Positions 9,160 to 60,965 of a stretch of 64,000 nt of DNA are shown here, one piece after another. The notes below the pieces were generated by a model that saw only the letters and a program-made list of their open reading frames with translations, searched no databases and was not told the origin of the DNA. How positions within the stretch are numbered: position 1 is the stretch's first letter; every line of letters begins with the position of its first letter. A program made the translations under genes and the position numbers. The stretch comes from an uncultured Bacilli bacterium (lineage in GTDB: Bacteria > Bacillota_I > Bacilli_A > RFN20 > CAG-449). Location of the stretch: the NCBI GenBank assembly GCA_947632435.1, contig CANRPC010000005.1:1-64000 (forward strand), given 5' to 3'.

Positions 9160-11310
9160 TTATTTGCTAATTTCTATTTTACATAAATCATTATCCATGT
9201 AATCAATTTTAATCTTGTATTCCATTTTTGATCCATCATGCATCAATGAATTTGTAAAGAAATTTGTATATAAAGCAGGATCCATAATGTCGCCTTCTTT
9301 AAATAAAGAATTATTATTAGCAATTTTTGATCTATAGGTAGAACGATTATCCGCGGTTATTAATTCAATCAAATGTTGATTGTTATAAGAACGACTTGGA
9401 GTATTAGAACTTGCAATTGTTAAATCACCTTCTAAATTTAAAGTGTCTTTATCTAGATATTGATATCCAGATCCATCAAATTTAATTATTCTTGCATCAA
9501 TATGAAATATTCTAACACCATTTTTCGTAAAATAATTAGGGCGATTTACATATGCATTTTCTGCATCAAATTTATTTAATCCAGTAGGTGTATCATATTC
9601 TATAATTAAATATTCATCAAATGGGGAATCATTATAATTTGTACATGGTATAACAATGCATTCACCTGAAGTAGAAAATGGTTTTAAATTAATATATGAA
9701 TCATCATTAACAATATAAGGATTTACCCATCCTAAACTAAATTTTGAAAAGGCATCGTGATCACCAATATTATAATCCATCATTCCTAAACCTCCAAAAC
9801 TTGAAGTGTAGTTAGTACTTGTGGTGATATAATAATCATCTAAACCAAGCATATGTCCCGTTTCATGGAATAAAGTATGTCCATCAAGACCTTGATCATT
9901 TCCTTCATAAGTAAAATAAACGCTGCAATTTGCATAGACAGATATTTTTTTCTCATCATTAAAACGATACCAATAAGTATAAGGCCAATATTTAGATGAT
10001 GTTGAAGCTCTATCATCATTATAAATAAACCAAAATCCATCGATATAGCCATCATCATTAGCATCATAGCTTTTATCATTATAATTAATTGGATTTCCAT
10101 TTATTGTTAATTTATCATACATATCTTGAATTAAAATTTGCGTTTCTGATCCATAATCATCGGTATATTGATTAAATGTTGTTGAAGAAAATGAAGGTGT
10201 ATAAACATCAGTATATACAAAATCAAGATCTAAATTTCCATAGCTTGATTTATAATAAAAGCTTTTTAATGATTCATAATAATCGTTAGAATTATCTTCT
10301 TTTGTTCCTTCAAAAACAGCTTTTAATTTATCCATGTTTTCTTGTTTTTTAAAATCATAAACATTTACTAAATCATAAAAGTTAATAGGAACTACGATAA
10401 TTTTAACTTTTCCTTTAGAAGGTACAATACTATAATTAGCATCTGCTTTATATAAATCATCATAAATAAATCGTGGTTTTTCTAATAATTTAAAGCCATT
10501 TAAGATTTTTTCTTCAATAGCAAATATATTAATAAAAGTAGAATAATTACCTTCTTTTGTTGTTATTTTTACTATATGATTACCGACAGTTAAAGCTTTA
10601 ACTTTTGTATCTTCGATTTTAATAAATTCATCATCGCTGCTAATTATAATATCTTTATATGTAGCGTTTTTTGGACTTATTTGATAAGAAGAACTAATAT
10701 CGATGTAACGATTAATTTCTACTTCAATATCACTTATTTTATTTATTCCTTCTACTTTAATTGGTTCTGCTTTTTTAATTAGTAAACCTTTAAAAAATAA
10801 GGATTCATCTTTACCTCGACAAGTAAAAGATAAGGAATGAATTAAAGTAGGTTCTTCAAAATTGTATATTACTTTTTCTTCTTGGCTAATATTAATAGTA
10901 AAAGAATAATTTTCATTATAAATAATTTTTTGACTAAATTGATTTTCTACTGCTTTAGCATAAAATGTTAAGGAATTAACTAGAATTGGTTCAACTAAGT
11001 CAATACTTATTGTTCCACCTAAAACCTTAGAACCAATACGATAAGCAGAATCATTATTTGATATGATTACACTTCCTGAATATGATAAAGTGGCATTGAA
11101 ATTATAAAAATCAAAATTTTCATTTTCAAATGTTGCTCCTTTAACTTCATTCATAAACATTCCAAAGTCATAACCATTAAAAATTTGATTTGATGAAGGT
11201 GTTGATAAAGTTTCTGAGTTATAAGAACTAGAGGTTGATGAAGTTTTATTACAACTTGTAAAAGTAAAACATCCAAATATAATTAAACTTAAACATAAAA
11301 TTTTTTTCAT
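9160..11310 (-). CDS. M6-type metalloprotease lipoprotein
   Basis: This is a surface zinc protease of the immune-inhibitor-A-like (M6) group. The signal peptide ends in the lipobox FTSC (Cys20), followed by a Ser/Thr-rich spacer. Residues of about 45-190 look like a beta-sandwich domain of unknown type. Residues 190-265 resemble a bacterial Ig-like domain with the ending VGNHIVKITTKEG. The catalytic region contains HETGHMLGLDDYY near residue 483: two zinc His, the catalytic Glu, then His/Asp in the M6 pattern. At 716 residues it looks complete. It is monocistronic. The substrate is unknown; host or dietary glycoproteins are only a guess. Confidence 0.88.
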   Translation of the reverse strand: MKKILCLSLIIFGCFTFTSCNKTSSTSSSYNSETLSTPSSNQIFNGYDFGMFMNEVKGATFENENFDFYNFNATLSYSGSVIISNNDSAYRIGSKVLGGTISIDLVEPILVNSLTFYAKAVENQFSQKIIYNENYSFTINISQEEKVIYNFEEPTLIHSLSFTCRGKDESLFFKGLLIKKAEPIKVEGINKISDIEVEINRYIDISSSYQISPKNATYKDIIISSDDEFIKIEDTKVKALTVGNHIVKITTKEGNYSTFINIFAIEEKILNGFKLLEKPRFIYDDLYKADANYSIVPSKGKVKIIVVPINFYDLVNVYDFKKQENMDKLKAVFEGTKEDNSNDYYESLKSFYYKSSYGNLDLDFVYTDVYTPSFSSTTFNQYTDDYGSETQILIQDMYDKLTINGNPINYNDKSYDANDDGYIDGFWFIYNDDRASTSSKYWPYTYWYRFNDEKKISVYANCSVYFTYEGNDQGLDGHTLFHETGHMLGLDDYYITTSTNYTSSFGGLGMMDYNIGDHDAFSKFSLGWVNPYIVNDDSYINLKPFSTSGECIVIPCTNYNDSPFDEYLIIEYDTPTGLNKFDAENAYVNRPNYFTKNGVRIFHIDARIIKFDGSGYQYLDKDTLNLEGDLTIASSNTPSRSYNNQHLIELITADNRSTYRSKIANNNSLFKEGDIMDPALYTNFFTNSLMHDGSKMEYKIKIDYMDNDLCKIEISK

Positions 11311-13299: not shown

Positions 13300-13436
13300 T
13301 TATATAAATTAAAAAATTTAATATAGTTAATATTTATAAAATATTACTTAAAATTGAAATCATTTTTCATAATTCGATAATAAAAAAAATCATAAAAAGG
13401 CTTTTATATTTTTTTCCCATATGCTATTCTAAGGGT

Positions 13437-13580
13437 GTAAAAGTTGTATATCTTGGAAATATGGTCCAAAGTTTCTACGTACTACCGTAAATGGTACACT
13501 ACAGCTCAAATGATTTAATATAGTTGTTTGTGCTTTTTTGTGTTGTTACTTTGGGACATCTTTCTTAAGGTGTTCCTTTT
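13437..13580 (+). promoter_or_regulatory. Purine (guanine-type) riboswitch with attenuator
   Basis: The aptamer (13442-13506) has P1 AGTTGT/ACAGCT, L2 AATATGG, J2/3 GTTTCTAC, P3 GTACT/GGTAC and loop ACCGTAAAT, all matching the xpt class. The specificity base in J3/1 (ACT) is C, as in guanine/hypoxanthine sensors. A terminator follows: GGGACAT (13553-13559) with GTGTTCC and TTTTTT. CTCAAA after P1 (13505-13510) can pair with TTTGGG (13550-13555), giving an antiterminator that ligand-stabilised P1 would block, so expression should fall when guanine is plentiful. An extended -10 TGCTATTCT lies at 13422-13430. Confidence 0.88.
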
Positions 13581-13619
13581 TTCTTTTATGGTTTATTTGT
13601 TAGGAGGAAGATTAAGTTA

Positions 13620-15809
13620 ATGAAATCTAGAAGAATAACCAAATTTTTAATCTCACTTATGATGGCACTAGGAATAGGTGCAGGTATCAACACAAATTTG
13701 CATGAAGGAAATGTAACAAGAGCTGCGACAACAACATATACTCAAATTACCTCACTTGATGAATTAGTTGATGGATTGGAAGTTATTATATCCGCAGATT
13801 CTTCGGGTAAACATTATTATTTACCAAACGATAAAATTACAAATACTGGTCCTAAAGCAACTGAATTTAGTTTATCTGATTATAAAACTAACATGATTTG
13901 GACAATGAATAAAAAAAATAGCGGATTTACCTTTTCTCATTATAATGATTCTACAAAATTAGATTTGTATTTTATTAATGATAATAATGGTGTAAGAGTT
14001 AATTCTGATAAAGAGTTTGAATTTTCAATAATAAAATCAACTACAGATAATACATTTACAATTTCTGGTACAATTTCTAGTGATACTCGTAATCTTGCTT
14101 TATATAGCACTCAAGATTTTAGATGTTATAAGACTAGTAGTGGAATTCAAAAAATAATATTGTATAAAGTGCAAGATATACAAGATGAGAGTAAATTCAA
14201 TGTAAATTATTCAGTTGATTCTAAAGTTAAATTTAAAAATGATTTTAAAACATCTTATGAATTTGATGTTGGAACAACTCAACAAATTACTTTGCCTTCA
14301 AAATCAGATTTTGAAAACGATGGAACATTCTATGCTGGTACAGTAGGTATTACTGGATGGAATGATGGACAACAAGATTATGAATTAGGAGCAAGTGTAA
14401 CTGTAAGTGAAAATACTACATTTACAGCTAAATATGAACAAATTAAAAAAGATTTAACTGTTGAAGAAGCAATAAATGTTGCTAAAGAAATTGGTTCAAG
14501 CGCTGATACTAATTATGAATATTCATGTGAAAGTACTATTTTTGAAATAAAAGATCAATATAGTTTGCAATATGGAAATATAACTTTATTATTAGGTGAT
14601 AAAACAAATAATATTGAAGCATATCGCTTAACTGGTGGAGAAGAATTAGAAGTTGGTGACATAATTAAAGTTACTGGTTATTTATTTAATTACAATAATA
14701 AAACTCCAGAGTTTAGTGAAAATTGTACATATGAATTAATAAAGAAAGCTAAAGATGTTGGTCCTGGAGAAAAGTTTAATGAATTAAATAGTTTTGCAAG
14801 ATTAAATGCTTCTTATAATAAAACAATATCAAGTTCAAGTTCAGAAAAAAATGATTCTTTTGATGCTCAAGATTTTTACACTTCAGGTACTTATCACGAA
14901 TTATCAAATGAAACAAATGTTTCTAAAATATTTACATTTTCAGCCTTTTGTATGACAAATCTTAATAATGGCGAATATTCATTTCAGTTAAGTGGTTCCA
15001 AAGGTGGAGAATTTGTTATAACATCATCTTTATATAGTATTAAAAAAATAAGTTTATCTATCTCAAATAATAATACAAATTCAGGATCTTTTGAAGTATA
15101 TGGAAAAGATGAAAAATATGAAACTTATAGTGATTTATCAAACACATCAAAGCAAGGAACTTTAATTAAAGAAATTTCAAGTTATAATAAAGGACAAAAA
15201 ATAGATATTGATTGTGGATATAAGTATTTTGGAATTAAGGCTACAAGTGGCACAGTTTATATTACAAATATTTCAGTTACTTATGAAGAAGAAGCTACTA
15301 CATATGAAGTAACAAATGCAAAATTAGGATTTGGTGTTAACTTTGATGAAACAATATATTCTCAAGATGCTAAATTTGGATTATTGTTATTTGATCCTAA
15401 TACAATTGTTGATTACAGCGATTTGAAATCAATTATAGAATTATCTGATGATTTAAATGATGATACATTCATTTCTTTAGATGAATATAAAAATGAATTA
15501 TCTGATCTTGATATAAAATATATTTCATACGAAAATTTGACTCCAATAAAAGTTGATGAAAATGGTAATCCATCTGAAAGTGGTAATCAATATCAATATG
15601 GTATTTTCTTCAATAATGCATTAGAAAATATTGATAGTTCATTTGTTGCAATGGCATATATGGAATTAAATGGTGAATTGTATTTAGCAAAGCATACAAA
15701 TGAATATTCATTAAGAAGTCTTGCTCAATATTACAAAGATAATAATGTAATGGCAACAATTGAAGATGCAAATGGTGTATTAGATGCAATCATTAACTAT
15801 GGAAATTAA
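13620..15809 (+). CDS. Large secreted multidomain protein under a guanine-type riboswitch
   Basis: The 729-residue protein has a Sec signal peptide (residues 1-36, ending near TRAA) and no lipobox, LPXTG or membrane anchor. Visible segments are: 40-188, a beta-rich domain ending LYKVQD; 190-272, similar to Listeria-Bacteroides (InlB-type) repeats, with TGWNDGQQDYELGASVTV; 275-377, resembling an OB-fold with VGDIIKVTGYLF; 385-560, a jelly-roll-like region; 565-729, unknown. I see no catalytic motif. Such OB-fold modules often accompany secreted nucleases, which would fit purine-starvation control, but that is inference. GGAGG lies about ten bases before the ATG. Confidence 0.8.
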   Translation: MKSRRITKFLISLMMALGIGAGINTNLHEGNVTRAATTTYTQITSLDELVDGLEVIISADSSGKHYYLPNDKITNTGPKATEFSLSDYKTNMIWTMNKKNSGFTFSHYNDSTKLDLYFINDNNGVRVNSDKEFEFSIIKSTTDNTFTISGTISSDTRNLALYSTQDFRCYKTSSGIQKIILYKVQDIQDESKFNVNYSVDSKVKFKNDFKTSYEFDVGTTQQITLPSKSDFENDGTFYAGTVGITGWNDGQQDYELGASVTVSENTTFTAKYEQIKKDLTVEEAINVAKEIGSSADTNYEYSCESTIFEIKDQYSLQYGNITLLLGDKTNNIEAYRLTGGEELEVGDIIKVTGYLFNYNNKTPEFSENCTYELIKKAKDVGPGEKFNELNSFARLNASYNKTISSSSSEKNDSFDAQDFYTSGTYHELSNETNVSKIFTFSAFCMTNLNNGEYSFQLSGSKGGEFVITSSLYSIKKISLSISNNNTNSGSFEVYGKDEKYETYSDLSNTSKQGTLIKEISSYNKGQKIDIDCGYKYFGIKATSGTVYITNISVTYEEEATTYEVTNAKLGFGVNFDETIYSQDAKFGLLLFDPNTIVDYSDLKSIIELSDDLNDDTFISLDEYKNELSDLDIKYISYENLTPIKVDENGNPSESGNQYQYGIFFNNALENIDSSFVAMAYMELNGELYLAKHTNEYSLRSLAQYYKDNNVMATIEDANGVLDAIINYGN

Positions 15810-15829
15810 ATGTAAAGGAAGATTTAAAG

Positions 15830-15967
15830 ATGAAGAAAAAATATTGTACTCCATTATTTGAAATTGAAACAATTAATGTCGATGATGTAATTTTAGTATC
15901 ACAAACTCTTGGTGATGAAGGTTTTGGCGGATTTGTTGATTATGATGAATTCCCTAAATTTAATTAA
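15830..15967 (+). CDS. 45-residue peptide downstream of the secreted protein
   Basis: This gene is absent from the ORF track. It encodes MKKKYCTPLFEIETINVDDV and continues through a Gly/Asp/Phe-rich tail (LGDEGFGGFVDYDEF) ending KFN. AAGGA precedes the ATG, and the gene lies 20 bp after the secreted-protein stop, before the terminator at 15986, so it shares the riboswitch-controlled transcript. The layout (basic start, Pro, acidic middle with DVILVS, Gly-rich tail) resembles a class of short unannotated Firmicutes/Bacteroidetes peptides whose role is unknown. It could be a peptide precursor, but I see no modification enzyme or dedicated exporter nearby. Confidence 0.7.
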   Translation: MKKKYCTPLFEIETINVDDVILVSQTLGDEGFGGFVDYDEFPKFN

Positions 15968-15985
15968 TTTATAAACTTTAATATT

Positions 15986-16014
15986 GAGGATGCATTAATT
16001 TGTATCCTCTTTTT
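15986..16014 (+). terminator. Terminator of the riboswitch-controlled operon
   Basis: GAGGATGCA (15986-15994) pairs with TGTATCCTC (16001-16009), a 9-bp stem followed by T5. Confidence 0.85.
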
Positions 16015-16025
16015 AGAAAAATTAT

Positions 16026-16289
16026 ATGAAAAAAATATTATTAATAACAATTTTATTTTTATGTTTTTCATGCACAAATCATGAAAATTCTTCTTCTTAT
16101 CAATTATCATCAAATAATGAAGATATTTCTGAAGATTTATCAAGTTATGTTTCAAGTAGTGAATCAAAATATACCACAAGTGAATCTTCTCCTTCTAGTG
16201 TTTATACATTAAGTGAATCATCAAGCTCACAAAGTTTAGAAAGCAATTTTAATACAAGTGGATATATTGAATTTCCTCCTGTATATTAA
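16026..16289 (+). CDS. Ser-rich lipoprotein consisting almost only of spacer
   Basis: An 87-residue protein with a signal peptide and lipobox CFSC (Cys16), then about 65 residues of Ser/Glu/Thr-rich low complexity and a short end, SGYIEFPPVY. Other lipoproteins in this window (4388, 9160, 29484, 33345) have a similar Ser/Thr-rich spacer but carry a folded domain after it; this one has none. It may be a surface-coating peptide or the remnant of a larger lipoprotein cut off at the end of its linker. There is no evident Shine-Dalgarno and the promoter is unclear. Confidence 0.65.
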   Translation: MKKILLITILFLCFSCTNHENSSSYQLSSNNEDISEDLSSYVSSSESKYTTSESSPSSVYTLSESSSSQSLESNFNTSGYIEFPPVY

Positions 16290-21871: not shown

Positions 21872-21894
21872 ATCTTTGATTTTTGGAGGTTAAT

Positions 21895-22665
21895 ATGGAA
21901 AACAATGAATTCAACAATAATGTTTCTCAGCAAGAAGAAAAAGGTCTTTCATTAAAAGATTTATTCTATATTGTAAGAAAACACATTATAGCTATAATTA
22001 TTTTTATTGTTGCTTTTTCAGGCTTAGGTTTAGGATTAGCATTTTATAAAGATGATAAATCACCAAGTTATACTGTTGCTGCGACAGTTCTTATTTGTCC
22101 TAATTTTGAAGATGATGGTAAGAATTTAGCAGTTACAACTCAATATCAATTAGCAAATTATTTATTGCCATCATTTATTGATATTTTACAAGCAAATCGT
22201 GTTCTTGATCCTGTTGCTGAAGAATGCGGAGTAACAGTAAGCGAAATTGAATCTAGACTATCTGTTTCTAATACTGAAGATTCTTTAGTGGTTACTTTAA
22301 AATATTCTTACAGCACACCAGAAAAAGCTACTTTAATTTTAAATTCTGTAGTTAATTCATTAGTAAACTTTACTCAAAATGAAACAACAGATATTGGTAT
22401 GTTTAAAAATGGTGTTCAAAAATTAGATGAAGCAAATGTAAATAGAGCGGTTAAGGCTTCATCAAAAATGAAATATACTGTTATTTTCTTCGCTATTGGT
22501 TTTGTTGTTGCAGTTGTTTATGTAGCTCTTCGTGAATTATTTGATAATTCCTTTAAATCAAGTGAACAAATTGAAGATGAATTAGGATTAAAAGTTATTG
22601 CTAATATTCCTCTTTATGAATTTAAAATAGAAGATAACAATGATTCTAAAGGAGAAAACAAATAA
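21895..22665 (+). CDS. Wzz-type polysaccharide chain-length / kinase-activator protein
   Basis: A polysaccharide co-polymerase that in Gram-positives anchors and activates the partner tyrosine kinase and sets chain length. The 256 residues have a cytosolic start, membrane span 1 (IIAIIIFIVAFSGLGLGLAF, about 34-54), an external domain of about 135 residues, span 2 (VIFFAIGFVVAVVYVAL, near 195-215) and a cytosolic tail. The track uses a TTG at 21883, but ATG 21895 follows GGAGGT by 4 nt and is chosen. Its stop overlaps the kinase start by one base (TAATG). It is the first gene of the operon. Confidence 0.9.
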   Translation: MENNEFNNNVSQQEEKGLSLKDLFYIVRKHIIAIIIFIVAFSGLGLGLAFYKDDKSPSYTVAATVLICPNFEDDGKNLAVTTQYQLANYLLPSFIDILQANRVLDPVAEECGVTVSEIESRLSVSNTEDSLVVTLKYSYSTPEKATLILNSVVNSLVNFTQNETTDIGMFKNGVQKLDEANVNRAVKASSKMKYTVIFFAIGFVVAVVYVALRELFDNSFKSSEQIEDELGLKVIANIPLYEFKIEDNNDSKGENK

Positions 22666-23411
22666 TGAAAAAAATTGGTAAAAAAGATGTAGGATTATTA
22701 AATCCTGATTATAGAATTATTACAAAAATAGAACCTGATTCAATTTCTGCTGAAGCTTATAGAAGAATTAAAGTTTCCTTAGATTTCTCTTCTATTGATA
22801 AAAAAATAAAAGTTGTACAGGTATGTTCATCAATTAAAGGTGAAGGAAAAACAATTACTCTTTTAAATCTTGCAGCAACATATGCTGAAAATGGTAAAAA
22901 AGTTATTGTCGTAGACTTAGATTTAAGAAAACCAAAATGTCATCGTGCTTTCCAAATTGAAAATAAAGATGGCTTAAATGATGTTTTATTAGGTAGTGTT
23001 AAATTAGAAGATGCTATTAAACATAGTGATGAATTAGGTTTTGATCTTCTCAATAGTGGTAAAAGAACTTCATCAGTTTCAAGTATTATTGAATCACAAC
23101 ATTTAAAAGATATTATTTTAGAACTTAAAGAAAAATATGATATGGTACTTGTAGACTGCCCTCCAGTTCTTGCAGTTTCTGATCCAGTTGTTATTTCTTC
23201 TTTCTGTGACGGAGTATTATTCGTTGTTTCTCAATTAAGAACTGAAAGAAAAATGGCTAAAGAAGCAATTAAAGTATTAAAAAATGGTAATGCTAATATT
23301 CTTGGTGTTGTCTTTACAGAAATTCAAACTAAAGAAGGCTTACATAAAAACCCTTACTATAATTACAATTACTATTATTACGGAGATAATAAAAAAAGCA
23401 AAAACAAATAA
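22665..23411 (+). CDS. Bacterial tyrosine kinase (CapB/YwqD type)
   Basis: A BY-kinase that autophosphorylates C-terminal tyrosines to control polysaccharide export and polymerisation. The 248-residue product has Walker A SSIKGEGKTITLLNLA (near 55-70), Walker A' VVDLDLRKP (near 83), Walker B VLVDCPP (near 163) and a terminal tyrosine cluster, NPYYNYNYYYYG. It is coupled to the Wzz-type gene upstream, and a PHP-type phosphatase that would reverse it follows 11 bp later: a complete kinase, activator and phosphatase trio. Confidence 0.93.
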   Translation: MKKIGKKDVGLLNPDYRIITKIEPDSISAEAYRRIKVSLDFSSIDKKIKVVQVCSSIKGEGKTITLLNLAATYAENGKKVIVVDLDLRKPKCHRAFQIENKDGLNDVLLGSVKLEDAIKHSDELGFDLLNSGKRTSSVSSIIESQHLKDIILELKEKYDMVLVDCPPVLAVSDPVVISSFCDGVLFVVSQLRTERKMAKEAIKVLKNGNANILGVVFTEIQTKEGLHKNPYYNYNYYYYGDNKKSKNK

Positions 23412-23422
23412 GGTAAAGAAAA

Positions 23423-24082
23423 ATGGTAGATATTCACGCACATATTATTCCTTTTGTAGATGATGGTAGTAAATCCTTAGAGGATTCAGTGCGGCTTATT
23501 GAAGAAGAAATTAAACAGGGAGTTACAGAAATTATCTGTACTCCTCATTTTGATTTAAAAAGATATTTTACACCAGTTAATGTTATTGAAGAACAATTTA
23601 ATTTATTAAATGCTAAAGTTAAAGAATTAAATTTAAATGTTAAATTATTTTTAGGACAAGAAATTTGTTATACCTGGAAAGTTAATATTATTGAAAAATT
23701 ACAAAATCATGAATTATTAACTTTAAAAAATTCTAAGTATGTTTTAATTGAATTTGATTTTTATGAAGAACCAATAAATTTTTTGGAATTTATTTATAAT
23801 ATTCGTATAAAGGGTTTTCGCCCAATAATTGCACATGTTGAACGATATGAATGGTTAAATGAAAAGAAATTGCAAAAAATAATTATTGAAGGTGGATTAA
23901 TTCAAGTAAACGCGAATTCTTTAATTGATTGTAAAAGCAGAAAATTACAAAAAAGAGCTAGATCTTATGTAAAAAAAGGCTATGTAAATTACATAGCTAG
24001 TGATATTCATGTTGTAAGAAAAAATACCATGGCGGAAGCTTATAAAAAATTTGGCAAATATTTAAATATTTTTGAATTTTAA
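23423..24082 (+). CDS. PHP-type protein-tyrosine phosphatase (CpsB/YwqE)
   Basis: A manganese-dependent phosphatase of the PHP superfamily that dephosphorylates the neighbouring BY-kinase. The 219-residue product begins MVDIHAHIIPFVDDG (metal-binding HxH), then CTPHFD, GQEICYT, IIAHVERYEW (near 145) and ASDIHVV (near 190), the expected order of metal ligands. It is full length. A weak ribosome site (AAGGTAAAG) lies before the ATG. Confidence 0.92.
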   Translation: MVDIHAHIIPFVDDGSKSLEDSVRLIEEEIKQGVTEIICTPHFDLKRYFTPVNVIEEQFNLLNAKVKELNLNVKLFLGQEICYTWKVNIIEKLQNHELLTLKNSKYVLIEFDFYEEPINFLEFIYNIRIKGFRPIIAHVERYEWLNEKKLQKIIIEGGLIQVNANSLIDCKSRKLQKRARSYVKKGYVNYIASDIHVVRKNTMAEAYKKFGKYLNIFEF

Positions 24083-24091
24083 AAAAATTAT

Positions 24092-26002
24092 ATGATATTA
24101 TTATTAGCACCTTATTTTGAAAAAAAGCCTTGGGCAGGTAATAAATTAAAAAAATATTTTGATTGTCCTTCTTCTATTGGTGAAGCTTGGATTGTTTCAG
24201 GATATAAAAATAAATCATCTTTAATTATTAATGGACCATATAAAAATCAAACACTTAGAAAAGTTTTTCATGAGCATGAAGAACTTTTTACACCTTTAAA
24301 AGATAAAGAATTTCCCTTACTTATAAAATTAATTTCTTCAAGTGATAATCTTTCAGTTCAAGTACATCCTAATGATAATTATGCTTTAAAAAAACATAAT
24401 CAACTTGGTAAATTTGAATGTTGGTATATTTTAGATGATAATGCTAGTAAAGAAGTAATACTTGGCTTAAATTTAAAAAATGCTCGTGAACTGAAATCAG
24501 TTTTAAAAAATAATACACTTGAAGATTTTTTATTACATAAAAAAATAAAAGCTAATGATTTAGTCGTGGTAAAACAGGGTAAAGTACATGCTTTATTAAA
24601 AGATAGTTTTGTTTTAGAAATTCAAGAAGCTAGTAATATTACTTATCGCTTATATGATTATAATCGTGAACCTAAAAGAGAGTTACATATTGAAGATTCC
24701 TTAAATGTTATTGATTATAATAATGAACATAATTATATTTATGATTTTCATAAGGAAAATAGTTATGATAATAACCATTTTTCTATTAATAAAATGATTA
24801 TCAATAATAAATTAATTTATAAAAATAAAGAATTAGAAGTTTTTTATGTTAGTAAAGGGAAAGGGAAAGTTAATGAATTTAATATTGAAGAAGGCTCTTC
24901 TTTTATATTAACTTTTGAAAGTAAAGAGCAAATTATTTTTGAAGGTAATATGGAGCTTATTCAAATCATTCCTAAAGTTAAAGAAAAGGAGATGCTAAAG
25001 ATGCGAAAAGTAGCATTAATCACAGGAGTTATATCTCAAGATGGTTATTATTTAACAAAATTACTTTTAGAAAAAGGATATGAAGTTCATGGTTTAGTGC
25101 AAGCTGAAACTCAAATTCTTAATTCTATATTTACCAAATATTTAGATAATGAAAATTTTCTTTATCATGTATCTGATATGACGGATACTTCAAATATTAA
25201 TCGTATCTTAGAGAATGTTAAACCTGATGAAATTTATCATCTTGCTTGTCAATCACATATAAATTTATCTTTTGATTTACCAGAATATACAACACAAGTT
25301 AATTCACTTGGAACATTAAGGTTATTAGATGCGATAAAAAATAGCGAAATTAAAACTAGACTTTTTAATTTATCTTCGCCATATTTATTTTCGGGAGAAA
25401 TATATCCTCAAGATGAAAATACGCCTTTTGATGTTCAATCACCTTTTGCTGTTTCAAAATTATATGCTCATAAAATGGTGCAAGTTTATCGTAACAATTT
25501 TTCTTTATATGCGGTTAATGGTATATGTTACAATCATGAATCCTTTATTAGAAATTATACAACTTTTGTTGCTCCAAAAATTATATCCGCGGTTAAAAGA
25601 ATTAAACAAGGAGAAAATTTTGTTTTAGAGCTTGGTAATCTTGATGCGAGAAGAGAATGGGGACACGCTAAAGATTATGCTTATGCTATGTGGCTTATTT
25701 TACAACAAGATAAACCTCAAGATTACATTATTGCTACAGGAGTTAGTTATACTGTTAGAGAATTTGTCATATCGAGTTTTAAACATGTAGGTATTGATAT
25801 TGTTTTTGTAGGTAAAAATGAAGATGAAATTGGTATTGATAAAAATACTAAAAAAATATTAGTAAAAGTCAATCCTAAATTAATGCGCCCAAATGAAGCT
25901 AAAGTCTTGATGGGTAATGCTGATAAATTATATAAAGATACTAATTTTAGAGTTAAAAATGATTTAGATAGTTTAATTGAATCTATGCTTAAAGGAGAAT
26001 AA
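24092..26002 (+). CDS. Fusion: mannose-6-phosphate isomerase and GDP-mannose 4,6-dehydratase-like
   Basis: A 636-residue ORF joining two enzymes of GDP-sugar metabolism. Residues 1-300 are a type I phosphomannose isomerase with VQVHPNDN, KFECWYIL and QGKVHALL (zinc ligands). From about residue 304 it matches Gmd (ALITGVISQDGYYL, ARREWGHAKDYAYAMW). The linker KEKEMLKM is the translation of an AAAGGAG site (24985-24991) and two ATGs, so the stop of manA appears lost while the gmd start signal (ATG 25001) remains; separate Gmd may also be made. In the Gmd part catalytic Tyr is Phe (SPFAVSK) and the active-site Glu is replaced. Confidence 0.88.
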   Translation: MILLLAPYFEKKPWAGNKLKKYFDCPSSIGEAWIVSGYKNKSSLIINGPYKNQTLRKVFHEHEELFTPLKDKEFPLLIKLISSSDNLSVQVHPNDNYALKKHNQLGKFECWYILDDNASKEVILGLNLKNARELKSVLKNNTLEDFLLHKKIKANDLVVVKQGKVHALLKDSFVLEIQEASNITYRLYDYNREPKRELHIEDSLNVIDYNNEHNYIYDFHKENSYDNNHFSINKMIINNKLIYKNKELEVFYVSKGKGKVNEFNIEEGSSFILTFESKEQIIFEGNMELIQIIPKVKEKEMLKMRKVALITGVISQDGYYLTKLLLEKGYEVHGLVQAETQILNSIFTKYLDNENFLYHVSDMTDTSNINRILENVKPDEIYHLACQSHINLSFDLPEYTTQVNSLGTLRLLDAIKNSEIKTRLFNLSSPYLFSGEIYPQDENTPFDVQSPFAVSKLYAHKMVQVYRNNFSLYAVNGICYNHESFIRNYTTFVAPKIISAVKRIKQGENFVLELGNLDARREWGHAKDYAYAMWLILQQDKPQDYIIATGVSYTVREFVISSFKHVGIDIVFVGKNEDEIGIDKNTKKILVKVNPKLMRPNEAKVLMGNADKLYKDTNFRVKNDLDSLIESMLKGE

Positions 26003-26126
26003 TTTTTTTATTAAAAATTGTATTATTTTTGATGTAGATTGTATTTAATTTATTTCTAGTGCTAATATTATATTTAGTAATGCAAATGAAAAATTTTGTT
26101 ACTAGTTAAAGAAAAGAAAAAATAAG

Positions 26127-27257
26127 ATGAAAGTGTTACAAATTCCCAATTATTTGTATCCTCATATTGGAGGAATTGAACAAGTAGCTCGTGATATAAT
26201 TTCTGCTTTAAAAGAAGAAAAAAATATTGAACAAAGAGTTATTTGTTTTAATAATATTCATAAAACATCTTATGAAATAGTTGATGGAATACAAGTAGTG
26301 CGTATAAAAAGCATAGGTAAATTTGCTTCTCAAGAATTAGCTTTTTCTTATAAAAAAGAATTAAAAAAAATTTTAGATGAATTTCAGCCAGATTTAATAA
26401 TTTTTCATTATCCTAATCCTTTGGTGGGACATTTTTTAATAAAATTTTTTCAAAGGAAGTTTAAATTAATTGTCTATTATCATCTTGATATTATTAAACA
26501 AAAAATTTTAGGTAAATTTTTTTTATCACAAACTAAAAAAATATTAAATAGAGCGGATAGAATTGTTGCTACAAGTCCTAATTATGTACTTGGAAGTAAA
26601 ATGCTTTCATTATATAAAAATAAAATTACAGTTATTCCAAATTGTGTTAATGATGAAAGAATAAAACTAAATGATATAATAATTAATAAGAGTTTAGAAA
26701 TTAAAAATAAATATAAAAATAAAATCATAGTTTTTGCCTGTGGTAGACATGTTAAATATAAAGGATTAATTAATTTAATAAAAGCTAGTAAATTATTAAA
26801 TGATGATTTTGTAATTTTTATTTCTGGTAAAGGTGAATTAACTTCCTCATTAAAAAAAGAAGCTAAAAATGATTATAAAGTACATTTTTTAGGCGTATTA
26901 AGCGATGAAGAATTAAAAGCCTATTTAAATGCGTGTGATATCTTTGCTTTTCCTTCGATTAGTAAAAATGAAGCATTTGGTATTGCTTTAGCTGAAGCTA
27001 TGGCTTTTAAAAAGCCAAGTGTAACTTTTGAAATTAAAGGAAGCGGAGTTAATTATGTTTCTTTAAATAATGTGACAGGTATTGAAGTTAAAAATCAAGA
27101 TGTCAAAGCTTTTGCCAAGGCTTTAAAATATTTAAAAGATAATGAAGTTAAAAGAATTCAAATGGGAGAAAATGCTTATTTAAGAGAACAAGAAGAATTT
27201 ACTCAGACAAAATTTAAGAAAAATATTTTAACTTTAATCGGAGAATTTTATGGCTAA
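26127..27257 (+). CDS. GT4-family glycosyltransferase
   Basis: A cytosolic, membrane-peripheral glycosyltransferase adding a sugar to the lipid-linked repeat unit. The 376-residue product has the GT-B fold: N-terminal YPHIGGIEQVARDI, and a C-terminal donor-binding half with VFACGRHVKYKGL and the EAFGIALAEAMAF (E-x7-E) motif near residue 290. A 124-bp gap with no clear terminator separates it from the fusion gene, and it overlaps the next gene by 8 bp. Donor and acceptor sugars cannot be told. Confidence 0.88.
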   Translation: MKVLQIPNYLYPHIGGIEQVARDIISALKEEKNIEQRVICFNNIHKTSYEIVDGIQVVRIKSIGKFASQELAFSYKKELKKILDEFQPDLIIFHYPNPLVGHFLIKFFQRKFKLIVYYHLDIIKQKILGKFFLSQTKKILNRADRIVATSPNYVLGSKMLSLYKNKITVIPNCVNDERIKLNDIIINKSLEIKNKYKNKIIVFACGRHVKYKGLINLIKASKLLNDDFVIFISGKGELTSSLKKEAKNDYKVHFLGVLSDEELKAYLNACDIFAFPSISKNEAFGIALAEAMAFKKPSVTFEIKGSGVNYVSLNNVTGIEVKNQDVKAFAKALKYLKDNEVKRIQMGENAYLREQEEFTQTKFKKNILTLIGEFYG

Positions 27258-28275
27258 AGTAGTTATCGATTGCCGTTATCTCAAAATGTCTGGAATTGGG
27301 CGTTTTTTGGAGAATATTTTAGATAATCTTGATTTTTCAAAACATACTTATACATTAATAGGGAAAGAAGAATATCTAAAAAAATATCAAGGCGTAACTT
27401 ATTTAATAGATGATAGATCACCATTTTCTAAAAGTTCTTTATTTAAATCACCAGTTGATTTAATTAATCAAAATGATGTTTATTTTGTTCCTAATTTTAT
27501 TATTCCTTATGGTATTAAAATAAAAGTAATCGCAGTATTTCATGACATTTTATTTTTTGATCATAAAGAGGTTAATGCTTCATATAGTGATTATTTAATT
27601 AAAAAAGTTTTAATAAATCGTTGCATGAAAAAAGCATATAAAATCTTTACTATTTCTAATTTTTCATTAAAACGTATTGCTTTTTATTATCCTAAATATG
27701 CTTATAAATTAAGTTATAATTATCAAGGTGTAGCTCAAATTTTTAAAAATCAAAAACCATATTATCAAAAAGAAAATTATCTTGTTTATGTAGGAAATAT
27801 AAAAAAGCATAAAGGTCTAAAGATTTTATTACAAGCTTTTTTGGAAATTAGAAAAATTAGTTCTTTAAAATTATATATTATTGGTGATTATGAATCATTT
27901 AAAAATAAAGATCAAGAAATGGTAAATCTTTTAAATACTGAGGGTATTGTTTTTACTAATCGTATTGATGATGATAAATTAATTGAAATTGTTAAAAAGG
28001 CTAAATTTTTAATTCAACCATCATTTTATGAGGGATTTGGAATTCCCCCTTTAGAGGCTTTGTATTTACATACTAGACCAATTATTTCAAACATTGAGGT
28101 TTTTAAAGAAGTTTATAAAGATTTACCAGTAGTCTTTTTTAAAGTAGGAGATTATTTAGATTTAAAAGAAAAAATTTTAACAAGTGAAGTTAATTTTGAA
28201 TTTGATGAATTAAAAACAAATAAAATATTTTCTTATGAGAACTTTTCTTCTATAATTGAAAGAGAGTTTAAATAA
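27250..28275 (+). CDS. GT4-family glycosyltransferase
   Basis: A second GT-B glycosyltransferase of 341 residues. N-terminal DCRYLKMSGIGRFLENIL is typical of mannosyltransferase-like GT4 enzymes, and the donor site shows VYVGNIKKHKGLK and FYEGFGIPPLEAL (E-x7-E) near residue 265. GGAG sits inside the end of the previous gene, so translation is coupled. Mannose transfer is possible given the phosphomannose isomerase in the operon, but unproven. Confidence 0.87.
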   Translation: MAKVVIDCRYLKMSGIGRFLENILDNLDFSKHTYTLIGKEEYLKKYQGVTYLIDDRSPFSKSSLFKSPVDLINQNDVYFVPNFIIPYGIKIKVIAVFHDILFFDHKEVNASYSDYLIKKVLINRCMKKAYKIFTISNFSLKRIAFYYPKYAYKLSYNYQGVAQIFKNQKPYYQKENYLVYVGNIKKHKGLKILLQAFLEIRKISSLKLYIIGDYESFKNKDQEMVNLLNTEGIVFTNRIDDDKLIEIVKKAKFLIQPSFYEGFGIPPLEALYLHTRPIISNIEVFKEVYKDLPVVFFKVGDYLDLKEKILTSEVNFEFDELKTNKIFSYENFSSIIEREFK

Positions 28276-28279
28276 GTTT

Positions 28280-29482
28280 ATGAGTTTTTTGAAAAGACAT
28301 TACGAGTTAATAGATATTCTCTTCCTATTTGCAATTTTATTTATAGGAAGTGATATTTATGGAATAACATTCATGAATATGAATTTTCGCTTTGTGCAAC
28401 TTTATTATGTTTTTTTAGCACTTTTTGTAATTATTAAATATAAATATTGTCTTTATTTACCTAAATCATTAATAATTTTAAGTATTTTATTTTTTATATC
28501 GAGTTGTTTTGCCTTAAATTTTAATAAGAGTATTGTTTTTTTCTTTTGGCTTATTTATAACATAATTTTTGTATTTAGTTTGTTTTATACTTACATAAAA
28601 ATAAGAGGTAAAGATAATTTTATTGATATATTCCGTTATACATTTTTTATAATTTTTTTATTGACTTTAATATTATTCATTCTAGGTAATTTTTTCCATA
28701 TTGAATTTCCATTTTTTTCATATCAAAATCATAAAAATGTAGCAAGAGTTGCAATCTGGTTTTTTGAACCAAGTTATCTTGCTTCATTTATAACAATGTA
28801 TTTAGGATTTAGTTTTTATAACTTTTTTATAAATAAGAAAAAAGAATATTTATTTGATACAATTTTTGCTTTTTTCTCCATTGTTTTTACTACTTCTTCG
28901 ACAGGATTTATCGCGTGTGCTTTAGCAATTATTATTTGTTTTATTATTAAAACGATTTTAATAAAAAACGTAAAACAAAAAGTAACAACCGCGTTTATTG
29001 GAATTTTACTTTTAGCAGCTGCTTTTATTTGCGTCTTAGTCTTCTTTCCAAATGTTTATAATGCTTTTATTAAACGACTTTATGTGGATGGCTTATTTAA
29101 TTCTTCGGGAACAAGAATGAGAGAATATAGTAATACCTTTAGTTTATTTTTGAAATATCCTTTCTTTGGTGTTGGCCCTAATTGTTATGGTTTATATTAT
29201 GGAAATGAAAATTTACAACCCACAAATGTTACGTTAGAATTACTTGCTACAACAGGAATATTTACCACTTTAGTTTTTTATGTTTTCTTTTTAAATCCAA
29301 TAAAGATATATTTTTCAAAAAATAATTATTCTTTAGAAACTAAAGCTATGGTTTTTGCTTTAATTTTATTTTTAATCATCATTCAAGCTAATCAAAATTA
29401 TATGCGCCTTTATATGTGGATGCTTTTAGCAATTTGTTATGCTATGATAAATGAAGAAACTAAAAAAGAGGAGATATGTTGA
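28280..29482 (+). CDS. Wzy/O-antigen-ligase-type polysaccharide polymerase
   Basis: An integral membrane protein of 400 residues with about ten hydrophobic spans. It carries the polymerase/ligase-type extracytoplasmic loop FNSSGTRMREYSNTF followed by KYPFFGVGPNCYGLYYG near residues 275-305, as in Wzy_C proteins that join repeat units. The track start at 28256 is a TTG without a ribosome site overlapping the previous gene; ATG 28280 is preferred, though its own ribosome site is also weak. The stop is TGA. Polymerase is more likely than ligase in a Gram-positive. Confidence 0.85.
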   Translation: MSFLKRHYELIDILFLFAILFIGSDIYGITFMNMNFRFVQLYYVFLALFVIIKYKYCLYLPKSLIILSILFFISSCFALNFNKSIVFFFWLIYNIIFVFSLFYTYIKIRGKDNFIDIFRYTFFIIFLLTLILFILGNFFHIEFPFFSYQNHKNVARVAIWFFEPSYLASFITMYLGFSFYNFFINKKKEYLFDTIFAFFSIVFTTSSTGFIACALAIIICFIIKTILIKNVKQKVTTAFIGILLLAAAFICVLVFFPNVYNAFIKRLYVDGLFNSSGTRMREYSNTFSLFLKYPFFGVGPNCYGLYYGNENLQPTNVTLELLATTGIFTTLVFYVFFLNPIKIYFSKNNYSLETKAMVFALILFLIIIQANQNYMRLYMWMLLAICYAMINEETKKEEIC

Positions 29483-57959: not shown

Positions 57960-58200
57960 ATGTAATAATCTATCTAGTGCGATGAAAGAAACAGACGCCT
58001 AAAAAATTTATTATAGAGAATCTTTGTTTGGTGGAAAAAGAGATAAATTTTTAAGATACGGATCATTCTTGAGCAATAAAACTGAACTCATAGTAAGTTT
58101 TACGTATCCTGCGTTAAAGGAAAAAATTGAGTGTTTGCTTTTATGCAAAAACTAAGGTGGTACCGCGTTTAATAACGTCCTTAGATGGGCGCTTTTTTTA
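57960..58200 (+). promoter_or_regulatory. T-box leader of ileS
   Basis: A tRNA-sensing riboswitch. It has the invariant T-box AAGGTGGTACCGCG (58154-58167), the stem I features AGAGA and GGTG, and ATC followed by A (58062-58065) in the specifier position, an Ile codon matching the gene. An attenuator, CGTCC-TTAGAT-GGGCG followed by T7, ends at about 58199. Uncharged tRNA-Ile should relieve termination. Confidence 0.92.
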
Positions 58201-58220
58201 TTTTAGGAGGCACAATAAAT

Positions 58221-60965
58221 ATGGAAATTAACAAGACGCTTTTAATGGGAAAAACTAACTTCGAAATGAGAGGTAATTTAGCTAATAAAGAACCAAAAAT
58301 GTTAGAAACTTGGGAAACAGAAGATCTATATCATCAAGTTTTAGCAAAAAGAAATAAAGATTTAACATTTATGCTTCATGATGGCCCTCCATATGCAAAT
58401 GGTGATATGCACTGCGGCCATATGTTAAATCGTATTTTAAAAGATATTGTTTTACGTTTTAAAGCAATGGATGGATATTATACACCATTTTATCCTGGAT
58501 GGGATACTCATGGTTTACCTATTGAAAATGCTGTTAGTAAATCTGGTGTAGATAGAAAAAAAGTTTCACCAGTAGAATTTCGTAAAAAGTGTGAAGAATA
58601 CGCTCATAAGCAAGTTAATCGCCAAATGCAACAAGTTAAACGTTTAGGACTTTTTGCTGATTTTGATAATAAATATGTAACACTTGATAAAAATTTTGAA
58701 AAATCACAAATTCATGTTTTTAAAGAAATGGCCTTGAAAGGATATATTTTTAAAGGATTAAAACCTGTTTATTGGTCTTATTCAAGTGAATCTGCGCTTG
58801 CTGAGGCAGAAATTGAATATTATGATGTCAAAGCTGATACTATCTATGTGAAATTTCAAGTTAGGGATGGTTTGAATAAATTAGATAATGATACTTATTT
58901 TGTTATTTGGACCACAACTCCTTGGACAATTCCTGCTAATCTTGCCATTTGTTTAAATCCTGATTTAACATATGGATTATTTGAAACAGATAAAGGCAAA
59001 CTTGTCTTCTTAGAATCGTTAAAAGATACTTTAAAAGAAGAATTAAATTTACATGAAATTAAATTAATTAAAACTTTTAAAGGAAAAGAATTAGAATATA
59101 TTAAAACAAAGCATCCTCTTTATGATCGAGATTCATTAATTATCTTAGGTAATCATGTTACAAGTGATGCTGGTACAGGATGTGTTCATACTGCGCCTGG
59201 TCATGGTGAAGATGACTATAATGTTTCTAAATTATATAATATTCCTCCATATTGTCCTGTTGACGAACATGGAAGAATGGATTCAAGTGTTGGAAAAGAA
59301 TTATCAGGTATGTTTTATGAAGATGCCAATAAAGAAGTATTAAAAATGCTTGATAATGTTGGGGCTTTACTTTCTGTTAAGGAAATTGTTCACTCATATC
59401 CTCACGATTGGAGAACAAAAAAACCTGTTATTTTTCGTGCAACTCCTCAATGGTTTTGCTCTATTGACAAAATTAGAGATCAACTTTTAAAAGAAATTGA
59501 TAAAGTAAATTGGATTCCTTCCTGGGGAAATATTCGTATGCACAACATGATTAAAGATCGTGGTGATTGGTGTATTTCCCGTCAACGTGCTTGGGGCGTG
59601 CCTTTACCAATTATTTATGATAAAGATGGTAACGCTTTATTAGAAAAAGAAATTCTTGATAATATTGAAAATTTAATTGGGGAATATGGTTCAAATATTT
59701 GGTTTGAAAAAACTGCAGAGGAATTATTACCTCAAAATTATGTATTACAACATAAAGAAAAAGCTCCATTTAGAAAAGAAACAGATATTATGGATGTTTG
59801 GTTTGATTCTGGTTCTTCTTCTAAAGCAGTAATGATTGATAGACATGAAAAATTTCCAGCTGATTTATATTTAGAGGGTTGTGATCAATATCGTGGTTGG
59901 TTTAATTCTTCATTAATTGTATCAGTTGCTACAGAAGGTGTTGCACCATATAAAGCTGTTTTAAGTCATGGATTTGTTTTAGATGGTAATGGCAATAAAA
60001 TGTCTAAATCTCTTGGTAATGGCATAGATCCTAATAAAATTATCAACGTTTATGGTGCTGATGTTTTAAGACTTTATGTTGCAACTGTTGATTATCAAGC
60101 TGATGTTCGTATCTCTGAAGCAATTATTAAAACTGTATCGGAAACTTATCGAAAAATTAGAAATGTCTTTAAATTTATGCTAGCCAATTTAGATAATAAT
60201 GGAAAGTTGTTTGATCCAAATAAAGATTTAGTTAAAGATTATTCTCGGGTTTCTAAATATATTTTAATGCGTTTAGATGAAGTAACAAATATTGCTCTTG
60301 ATGAATATAACAAATATAATTTTGCAAACATGATTCAAGAAATTTTAACTTTTTTAACACAAGATATTTCAGCATTTTATCTTTCTCTTGCTAAAGATTA
60401 TTTATATTGTGATGAGGTAAATTCTTCATCAAGAAAGGAATATCAAAGTGTAATTTATTTAGTAGCTACAACATTATCTAAACTTCTTGCTCCTGTTTTA
60501 TGTTTCACTATGGAAGAGGTACATCAATATTTACCTTCACCAAAAGAAAAATATATGATTTTAGAAGATATGGTAAAAGGTAATAGAATTATTGATAAAG
60601 CATTATTAGAGGAATATAAATTATTCATGTCAATGCGTTCTGAAGTTTTAAAAGCTTTGGAAAATGCTCGTGCAAATTCTTTGATTGGTTCTTCTTTAGA
60701 AGCAGATATTACACTTGAAGCATTAAATTCTGATGTTGAAAAATTATTAAAACAATTTACTATTGATGAATTAAATCATATTTTCATTGTTTCTCGAGTT
60801 AATTTTGCACCTAGTGAAAATAAATTCAATTACGTAGGAGTAACAGTAAAAAAACATCAAGGTAAAAAATGTGAACGTTGTTGGCAATATTTTGATGAAC
60901 TTATTACTTTTGAAAATTATCACGTTTGCCCACGTTGTTTTAAGGTTATAAAAAATTATGAATAA
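58221..60965 (+). CDS. ileS: Isoleucine--tRNA ligase
   Basis: A class Ia synthetase charging tRNA-Ile and editing valine. The 914-residue product has the HIGH-type motif PPYANGDMHCGHMLNRIL (near 55-72), the WTTTPWTIPAN editing-domain start (near 230), the DWCISRQRAWGVPLP block (near 450), the KMSKS motif NKMSKSLGNGIDP (near 593), and a C-terminal zinc finger CERCWQYFDELITFENYHVCPRC. The track starts inside the attenuator at 58185; ATG 58221 after AGGAGG is chosen. lspA overlaps its end by 8 bp. Confidence 0.97.
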   Translation: MEINKTLLMGKTNFEMRGNLANKEPKMLETWETEDLYHQVLAKRNKDLTFMLHDGPPYANGDMHCGHMLNRILKDIVLRFKAMDGYYTPFYPGWDTHGLPIENAVSKSGVDRKKVSPVEFRKKCEEYAHKQVNRQMQQVKRLGLFADFDNKYVTLDKNFEKSQIHVFKEMALKGYIFKGLKPVYWSYSSESALAEAEIEYYDVKADTIYVKFQVRDGLNKLDNDTYFVIWTTTPWTIPANLAICLNPDLTYGLFETDKGKLVFLESLKDTLKEELNLHEIKLIKTFKGKELEYIKTKHPLYDRDSLIILGNHVTSDAGTGCVHTAPGHGEDDYNVSKLYNIPPYCPVDEHGRMDSSVGKELSGMFYEDANKEVLKMLDNVGALLSVKEIVHSYPHDWRTKKPVIFRATPQWFCSIDKIRDQLLKEIDKVNWIPSWGNIRMHNMIKDRGDWCISRQRAWGVPLPIIYDKDGNALLEKEILDNIENLIGEYGSNIWFEKTAEELLPQNYVLQHKEKAPFRKETDIMDVWFDSGSSSKAVMIDRHEKFPADLYLEGCDQYRGWFNSSLIVSVATEGVAPYKAVLSHGFVLDGNGNKMSKSLGNGIDPNKIINVYGADVLRLYVATVDYQADVRISEAIIKTVSETYRKIRNVFKFMLANLDNNGKLFDPNKDLVKDYSRVSKYILMRLDEVTNIALDEYNKYNFANMIQEILTFLTQDISAFYLSLAKDYLYCDEVNSSSRKEYQSVIYLVATTLSKLLAPVLCFTMEEVHQYLPSPKEKYMILEDMVKGNRIIDKALLEEYKLFMSMRSEVLKALENARANSLIGSSLEADITLEALNSDVEKLLKQFTIDELNHIFIVSRVNFAPSENKFNYVGVTVKKHQGKKCERCWQYFDELITFENYHVCPRCFKVIKNYE

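Follow-up and report, generated by a model that had tools for sequence, protein, structure and literature searches.

In an uncultured gut Bacilli bacterium, a guanine-responsive riboswitch of the transcription-attenuating OFF type probably controls an outward-facing unit for nucleic-acid acquisition, in a host that seems to depend on external purines. The riboswitch precedes genes for a secreted multidomain protein (A), a small peptide (B) and perhaps a lipoprotein (C), in the window, i.e., the whole 64,000-nucleotide stretch of DNA that was analysed. The original prediction, made from the letters alone, held that a guanine-type riboswitch and its attenuator lead into genes A and B, with secretion upon guanine depletion, perhaps for scavenging extracellular nucleic acid. 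The features on which the analysis relies are the following:

13354..13381 (+): promoter-like site TTGAAA-16-GATAAT, 10/12 consensus matches (a resemblance to the consensus, which does not show use)
13424..13521 (+): purine riboswitch aptamer, guanine class, core at about 13441-13507 (RF00167 match and alignment)
13465..13472 (+): antiterminator strand 1, made of the 3' strand of P2 and the beginning of J2/3; partner of 13549-13556 in the minimum-energy fold without ligand
13549..13556 (+): antiterminator strand 2, overlapping the terminator 5' arm (folding)
13553..13576 (+): intrinsic terminator hairpin, 10 bp, then TTTTTT
13620..15809 (+): gene A, predicted secreted multidomain protein of 729 residues (open reading frame with a signal-peptide-like start); OB fold at residues 271-377, beta-rich region at about 437-555, C-terminal domain from about 552
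15830..15967 (+): gene B, peptide of 45 residues with a YxxP N-terminal motif (open reading frame and alignment)
15986..16009 (+): terminator-like hairpin between B and C
16026..16289 (+): gene C, Ser/Thr-rich lipoprotein of 87 residues ending in EFPPVY (open reading frame; the A-B-C trio recurs)

The aptamer and its attenuator

Guanine-class RF00167 riboswitches equipped with a terminator are known upstream of xpt and pbu genes. When the whole window was compared with all 4227 Rfam families, the purine riboswitch covariance model matched with 65.1 bits (gathering score 37; E=4.2e-9). The alignment contains P1, P2, and P3, and the hallmarks of RF00167: the three-way junction, the conserved J2/3 (GUUUCUAC), and the L2-L3 kissing loops (AAUAUGG and CCGUAAA). 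The core bases are U22 (13449), U51 (13476), and, at the specificity position, C74 (13499), so that the intact core and specificity C announced by the original prediction are indeed there. The combination of C at 74 with U at 51 marks the guanine class, and guanine is likely the ligand. This is the sole purine riboswitch detected in the 1.68-Mb genome.

Purine-family aptamers also include the 2'-dG-II riboswitches of Bacteroidetes, which are recognized by C51 together with two inserted bases in J3/1, and whose downstream genes include endonuclease I, ComEC, and phospholipase D (PMC8872408). The resemblance of these targets, endonuclease I and ComEC, to genes found here would favour an aptamer sensing a nucleoside such as 2'-deoxyguanosine. 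The 2'-dG class was nevertheless rejected for the window aptamer, because U51 is retained and J3/1 carries no insertion. The junction is, moreover, like that of permease-linked aptamers in the same family, and nucleoside sensing is left with only a very slight chance.

The leader folds much better than shuffled sequences (z=-3.9). In the ligand-free state, the preferred fold joins CCAAAG, in the 3' strand of P2, to CUUUGG, located just before and within the terminator 5' arm; this free minimum lies at -39.2 kcal/mol, versus -31.9 kcal/mol for the state combining aptamer and terminator. By folding, the terminator and its competing antiterminator thus form a platform that is mutually exclusive with the aptamer. 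Together, the core bases, the terminator, and this antiterminator make the leader read as a guanine-OFF attenuator, in which termination is predicted to be favoured only with ligand bound. From the terminator to the start codon of gene A, the search detected no promoter-like site; the best one upstream is that at 13354-13381. Sequence evidence gives good support to the identity of the aptamer and to its OFF architecture. When guanine or hypoxanthine is abundant, the aptamer would fold, the terminator would form, and the operon would be off. When they are scarce, the P2 3' strand would pair with the terminator 5' arm, allowing readthrough into A, B, and perhaps C.

The window riboswitch shares the aptamer fold, the kissing loops, C74, U51, and terminator-based OFF attenuation with the xpt and pbu riboswitches. 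It differs from them in that its target is a secreted protein with a small peptide, not purine synthesis, salvage, or transport. A second RNA leader of the window, a T-box (57973-58185, + strand; 110 bits), lies directly before an isoleucyl-tRNA-synthetase-like gene (58185-60965).

Protein A and other secreted proteins behind purine riboswitches

The 729- and 45-residue open reading frames are as first described, and the start of protein A is signal-peptide-like. Pfam and NCBIfam offer almost nothing for either product, and no Pfam match to the Endonuclease_1 domain (PF04231) was obtained in protein A. A scan of genome contigs with A's domain found no relative, and sequence comparison with solved structures returned none matching its C-terminal domain. 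Structure prediction of the full-length protein from the single sequence with AlphaFold2 was poor (pLDDT 38) and unusable, whereas the alignment-based model of residues 271-377 is confident (mean pLDDT 87.1). This region aligns with OB domains from other genomes by hhalign (97.7%, E=1.3e-12), and Foldseek matched its model best to those of tRNA synthetases, RPA, and telomere-binding proteins (E down to 7.6e-5). A VIA comparison gave a Z of 10.8, with an rmsd of 2.5 over 92 residues. The OB-fold-like domain suspected at first sight is, therefore, an OB barrel by both profile and fold comparison. In the window it is recognized by hhalign, the more sensitive profile comparison, and by the model, and was missed by a leave-one-out HMM built from the other OB domains. 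OB folds can bind proteins and sugars as well, and a shared fold does not reveal the ligand. Elsewhere in the window are a secreted lipoprotein with an M6-type metalloprotease domain (9160-11310, - strand; NCBIfam match below cut-off) and a polysaccharide-synthesis-like cluster (21883-29482) with chain-length and tyrosine-kinase-like proteins and glycosyltransferases.

The search for similar riboswitch-linked genes showed that the arrangement recurs. Purine riboswitches were present in 72 of the 222 genomes of the order, from which 87 riboswitch loci were extracted and their downstream genes read. Purine permeases or BMP-type ABC transporters, assigned purely by sequence resemblance, lie behind most of them. 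Secreted multidomain proteins follow a minority: the window, four genomes of family f4 (G151, G150, G145, and G148), G021 in f2 (two such loci, one with a short reading frame), G011 in f1, and G036 in f3. A C-terminal domain of about 170 residues is common to the riboswitched proteins of the window, the four f4 genomes, and one G021 locus, i.e., six loci in three families of the Bacilli order (f1, to which the window belongs, f4, and f2). Chance alone would give about 0.05 such placements, with 1300 genes per genome assumed, against the six seen, among which the f4 cases are mutually related. In the order as a whole, 19 genomes share the domain with protein A. When the other A-family loci were scanned with Rfam, no further adjoining riboswitch was found, except at the second G021 locus. 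The family is wider, and consists of secreted modular proteins of which most have neither riboswitch nor OB domain. Two same-genus genomes were compared for an empty site, but their GlmM matches are only 37-38% identical.

The company of these riboswitched genes points to DNA processing. Each of the four f4 genomes encodes a secreted Endonuclease I downstream of the riboswitched gene, in the same orientation; two were identified by PF04231 (E 1.6e-25 and 2.8e-26), and the other two by BLAST to those. The profile of A's C-terminal domain matches the Endonuclease I proteins in 4/4 of these genomes (E 2e-20 to 6e-14). Two further riboswitch loci (L076 and L034) lead to secreted OB-fold or Ig-like lipoproteins, and at the one in G011 the next gene encodes a metallo-beta-lactamase-fold lipoprotein, ComEC-like by eye. 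Among the closest known systems are secreted Endonuclease I proteins (PF04231) that have Ig-like, OB-fold, and C-terminal domains as accessories. In the same order, protein A has its OB-type and C-terminal domains in common with several of them, but lacks the Endonuclease I domain.

Among A-family proteins, OB matches occur only in riboswitched members (4/6, those of G148 and G021 giving none) or in Endonuclease I members. They are absent from the 20 others (Fisher p=0.001, kinship ignored and with a profile that was seeded with the positives). With a profile made from nuclease OB domains alone, the counts are 2/6 riboswitched versus 0/20 others (p=0.046, kinship again ignored).

Other riboswitch loci of the order have different surroundings. 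Aptamers of conserved purine type (49-58 bits) in G005, G003, and G004 (L036:4160-4256, L037:3856-3952, and L038:6384-6480) face the 3' end of a convergent glycosyltransferase-like gene, with no sense-strand gene nearby. That of G005 has a terminator-like hairpin directly behind it, and these three possibly represent riboswitch-controlled short RNAs or relics. By eye, one purine riboswitch precedes a peptidase-like gene (L039:2518-2613, in G010) and another a guanine-deaminase-like gene (L131, in G185).

Peptide B, lipoprotein C, and PqqD

Peptides of 43-59 residues are regularly encoded downstream of A-family proteins, with a K-x-Y-x-x-P motif followed by D/N-I/V-I-x-x-S. In the motif alignment of the family, the Pro is invariant and preceded in the motif by Tyr or Phe in 12/12 sequences; the window peptide reads KKKYCTP. 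We take this YxxP-type N-terminal motif to be lasso-leader-like. A Ser/Thr-rich lipoprotein is often also present, with a short motif at its end (EFPPVY, ELPYI, or ELPWL, for example). Lipoprotein C is, accordingly, the third gene of a recurring A-B-C unit that extends beyond the interval first singled out. Its inclusion in the operon is weakened by the terminator-like hairpin at 15986-16009, which may lower its expression relative to A and B.

The 45-residue peptide, originally tied to the riboswitch, does exist, but it is not specific to purine control, because it is one of about nine such peptides in the window genome, which adjoin large secreted proteins often lacking A's domain. Other copies lie on contigs C1 (two), C3, C13, C17, C26, and C40. 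A PqqD-type protein is also encoded in this genome (G000:C18). Of 18 genomes, nine have both the peptide and PqqD and eight have neither; the agreement of 17/18 (Fisher p=2e-4, kinship ignored) has a sole exception, the 65%-complete genome G008. The best NCBIfam matches of the PqqD protein are lasso-type PqqD models, below cut-off. Its gene sits with those of a kinase-like protein and an S24/S26 peptidase, followed in relatives by an ABC transporter and an NTP_transf_5 protein. The window contains one NTP_transf_5 gene (PF14907; 19085-20179, - strand), alone here and part of such cassettes in relatives.

These genes recall lasso systems with PqqD-type B1, HPr-kinase-like, and nucleotidyltransferase genes, such as those of paeninodin and pseudomycoidin, for which HPr-kinase and nucleotidyltransferase tailoring is documented (PMC8498205). 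The YxxP-type motif of B and the PqqD, kinase-like, S24/S26 peptidase, ABC transporter, and NTP_transf_5 genes of the same genomes are common ground. In contrast to these systems, the PqqD genes that were inspected have no visible cyclase (C) or B2 protease neighbour, and the peptides adjoin large secreted proteins. We infer that peptide B may be a PqqD-recognized precursor. More tentatively, B could belong to a new class of PqqD-guided, lasso-leader-like modified peptides that regularly accompany large secreted proteins, in many cases together with lipoprotein C. The guanine-switched copy would then deploy capture protein, peptide, and lipoprotein together under purine starvation, a proposal that we regard as rather doubtful.

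Purine supply and the role of the operon

PurC is absent from 18/18 genomes of the host family and present in 14/14 controls, which suggests, as far as this one gene can tell, that the family is purine auxotrophic. Such auxotrophy would give purine control of protein A a direct reason. Endonuclease I is encoded in 17/18 of these genomes; that of the window genome is a serine-rich lipoprotein on another contig, with no purine riboswitch beside it. Judged by the glycogen phosphorylase of the host, its nearest named genomes come from uncultured gut Bacilli, namely rabbit-gut MAGs with identities of up to 81%.

Distant relatives place secreted DNA-cutting enzymes under the same type of sensor, and the window operon, therefore, looks like a controlled harvest of purines from outside nucleic acids. 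Protein A would be exported, and its OB fold would bind extracellular DNA or RNA. Surface or secreted nucleases, e.g., the Endonuclease I lipoprotein of the genome, could then feed purine uptake. Secretion on guanine depletion for nucleic-acid scavenging, as predicted at the outset, fits the secreted Endonuclease I of related riboswitch loci and the seemingly auxotrophic family. If one explanation is to cover the OB fold, the nuclease-shared domain, the operon neighbours, and the auxotrophy, nucleic-acid capture does so best, by association. Against it, no nuclease gene is part of the window operon, and no riboswitch controls the Endonuclease I gene of this genome.

The same lack of a nuclease would suit a genuine guanine OFF switch acting on a general surface protein, i.e., an adhesin or glycan binder whose OB fold binds sugar or protein, with guanine as a mere nutrient signal. 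Most members of A's secreted modular family are, indeed, without riboswitch or OB domain, and the beta-trefoil, Ig-like, and InlB-like modules matched in relatives are common in adhesins. This is, nevertheless, an unlikely account, since OB matches in the A family are confined to riboswitched or Endonuclease I members, riboswitched loci of f4 continue with nucleases, and auxotrophy is itself a direct reason for purine control. The operon could also serve mainly to make peptide B as a PqqD-dependent, purine-regulated antimicrobial or signal, with A as an accessory. The lasso-like YxxP motif, the co-occurrence of the B family with PqqD genes, and the NTP_transf_5 gene within the window speak for this. 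The same kind of peptide, however, follows many different secreted proteins in the genome without a riboswitch, and the PqqD genes inspected showed no cyclase or B2 protease nearby. A peptide-centred operon appears highly improbable.

The nearest parallel to nucleic-acid capture under a purine sensor is the 2'-dG-II precedent, beyond which the literature on purine riboswitches with secreted nucleases yielded nothing direct (PMC8872408). Purine-family riboswitches over DNA-processing genes are, therefore, not new in principle, and in relatives of the window Endonuclease I and the metallo-beta-lactamase-fold lipoprotein likewise follow riboswitches. The window differs from that precedent by its guanine-class aptamer, its host (Bacilli, another phylum), and its target, a non-nuclease OB-fold protein, and also by its operon structure.

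The association briefly reported for 2'-dG-II riboswitches and DNA-processing genes is thereby joined to a guanine-class counterpart in another phylum, and a directly testable regulon is provided. The multicopy peptide family, paired with secreted proteins and PqqD, could be a new type of modified peptide. Overall, these observations suggest that, in uncultured gut Bacilli, guanine riboswitches can control purine acquisition from extracellular nucleic acids, beyond transport and synthesis.
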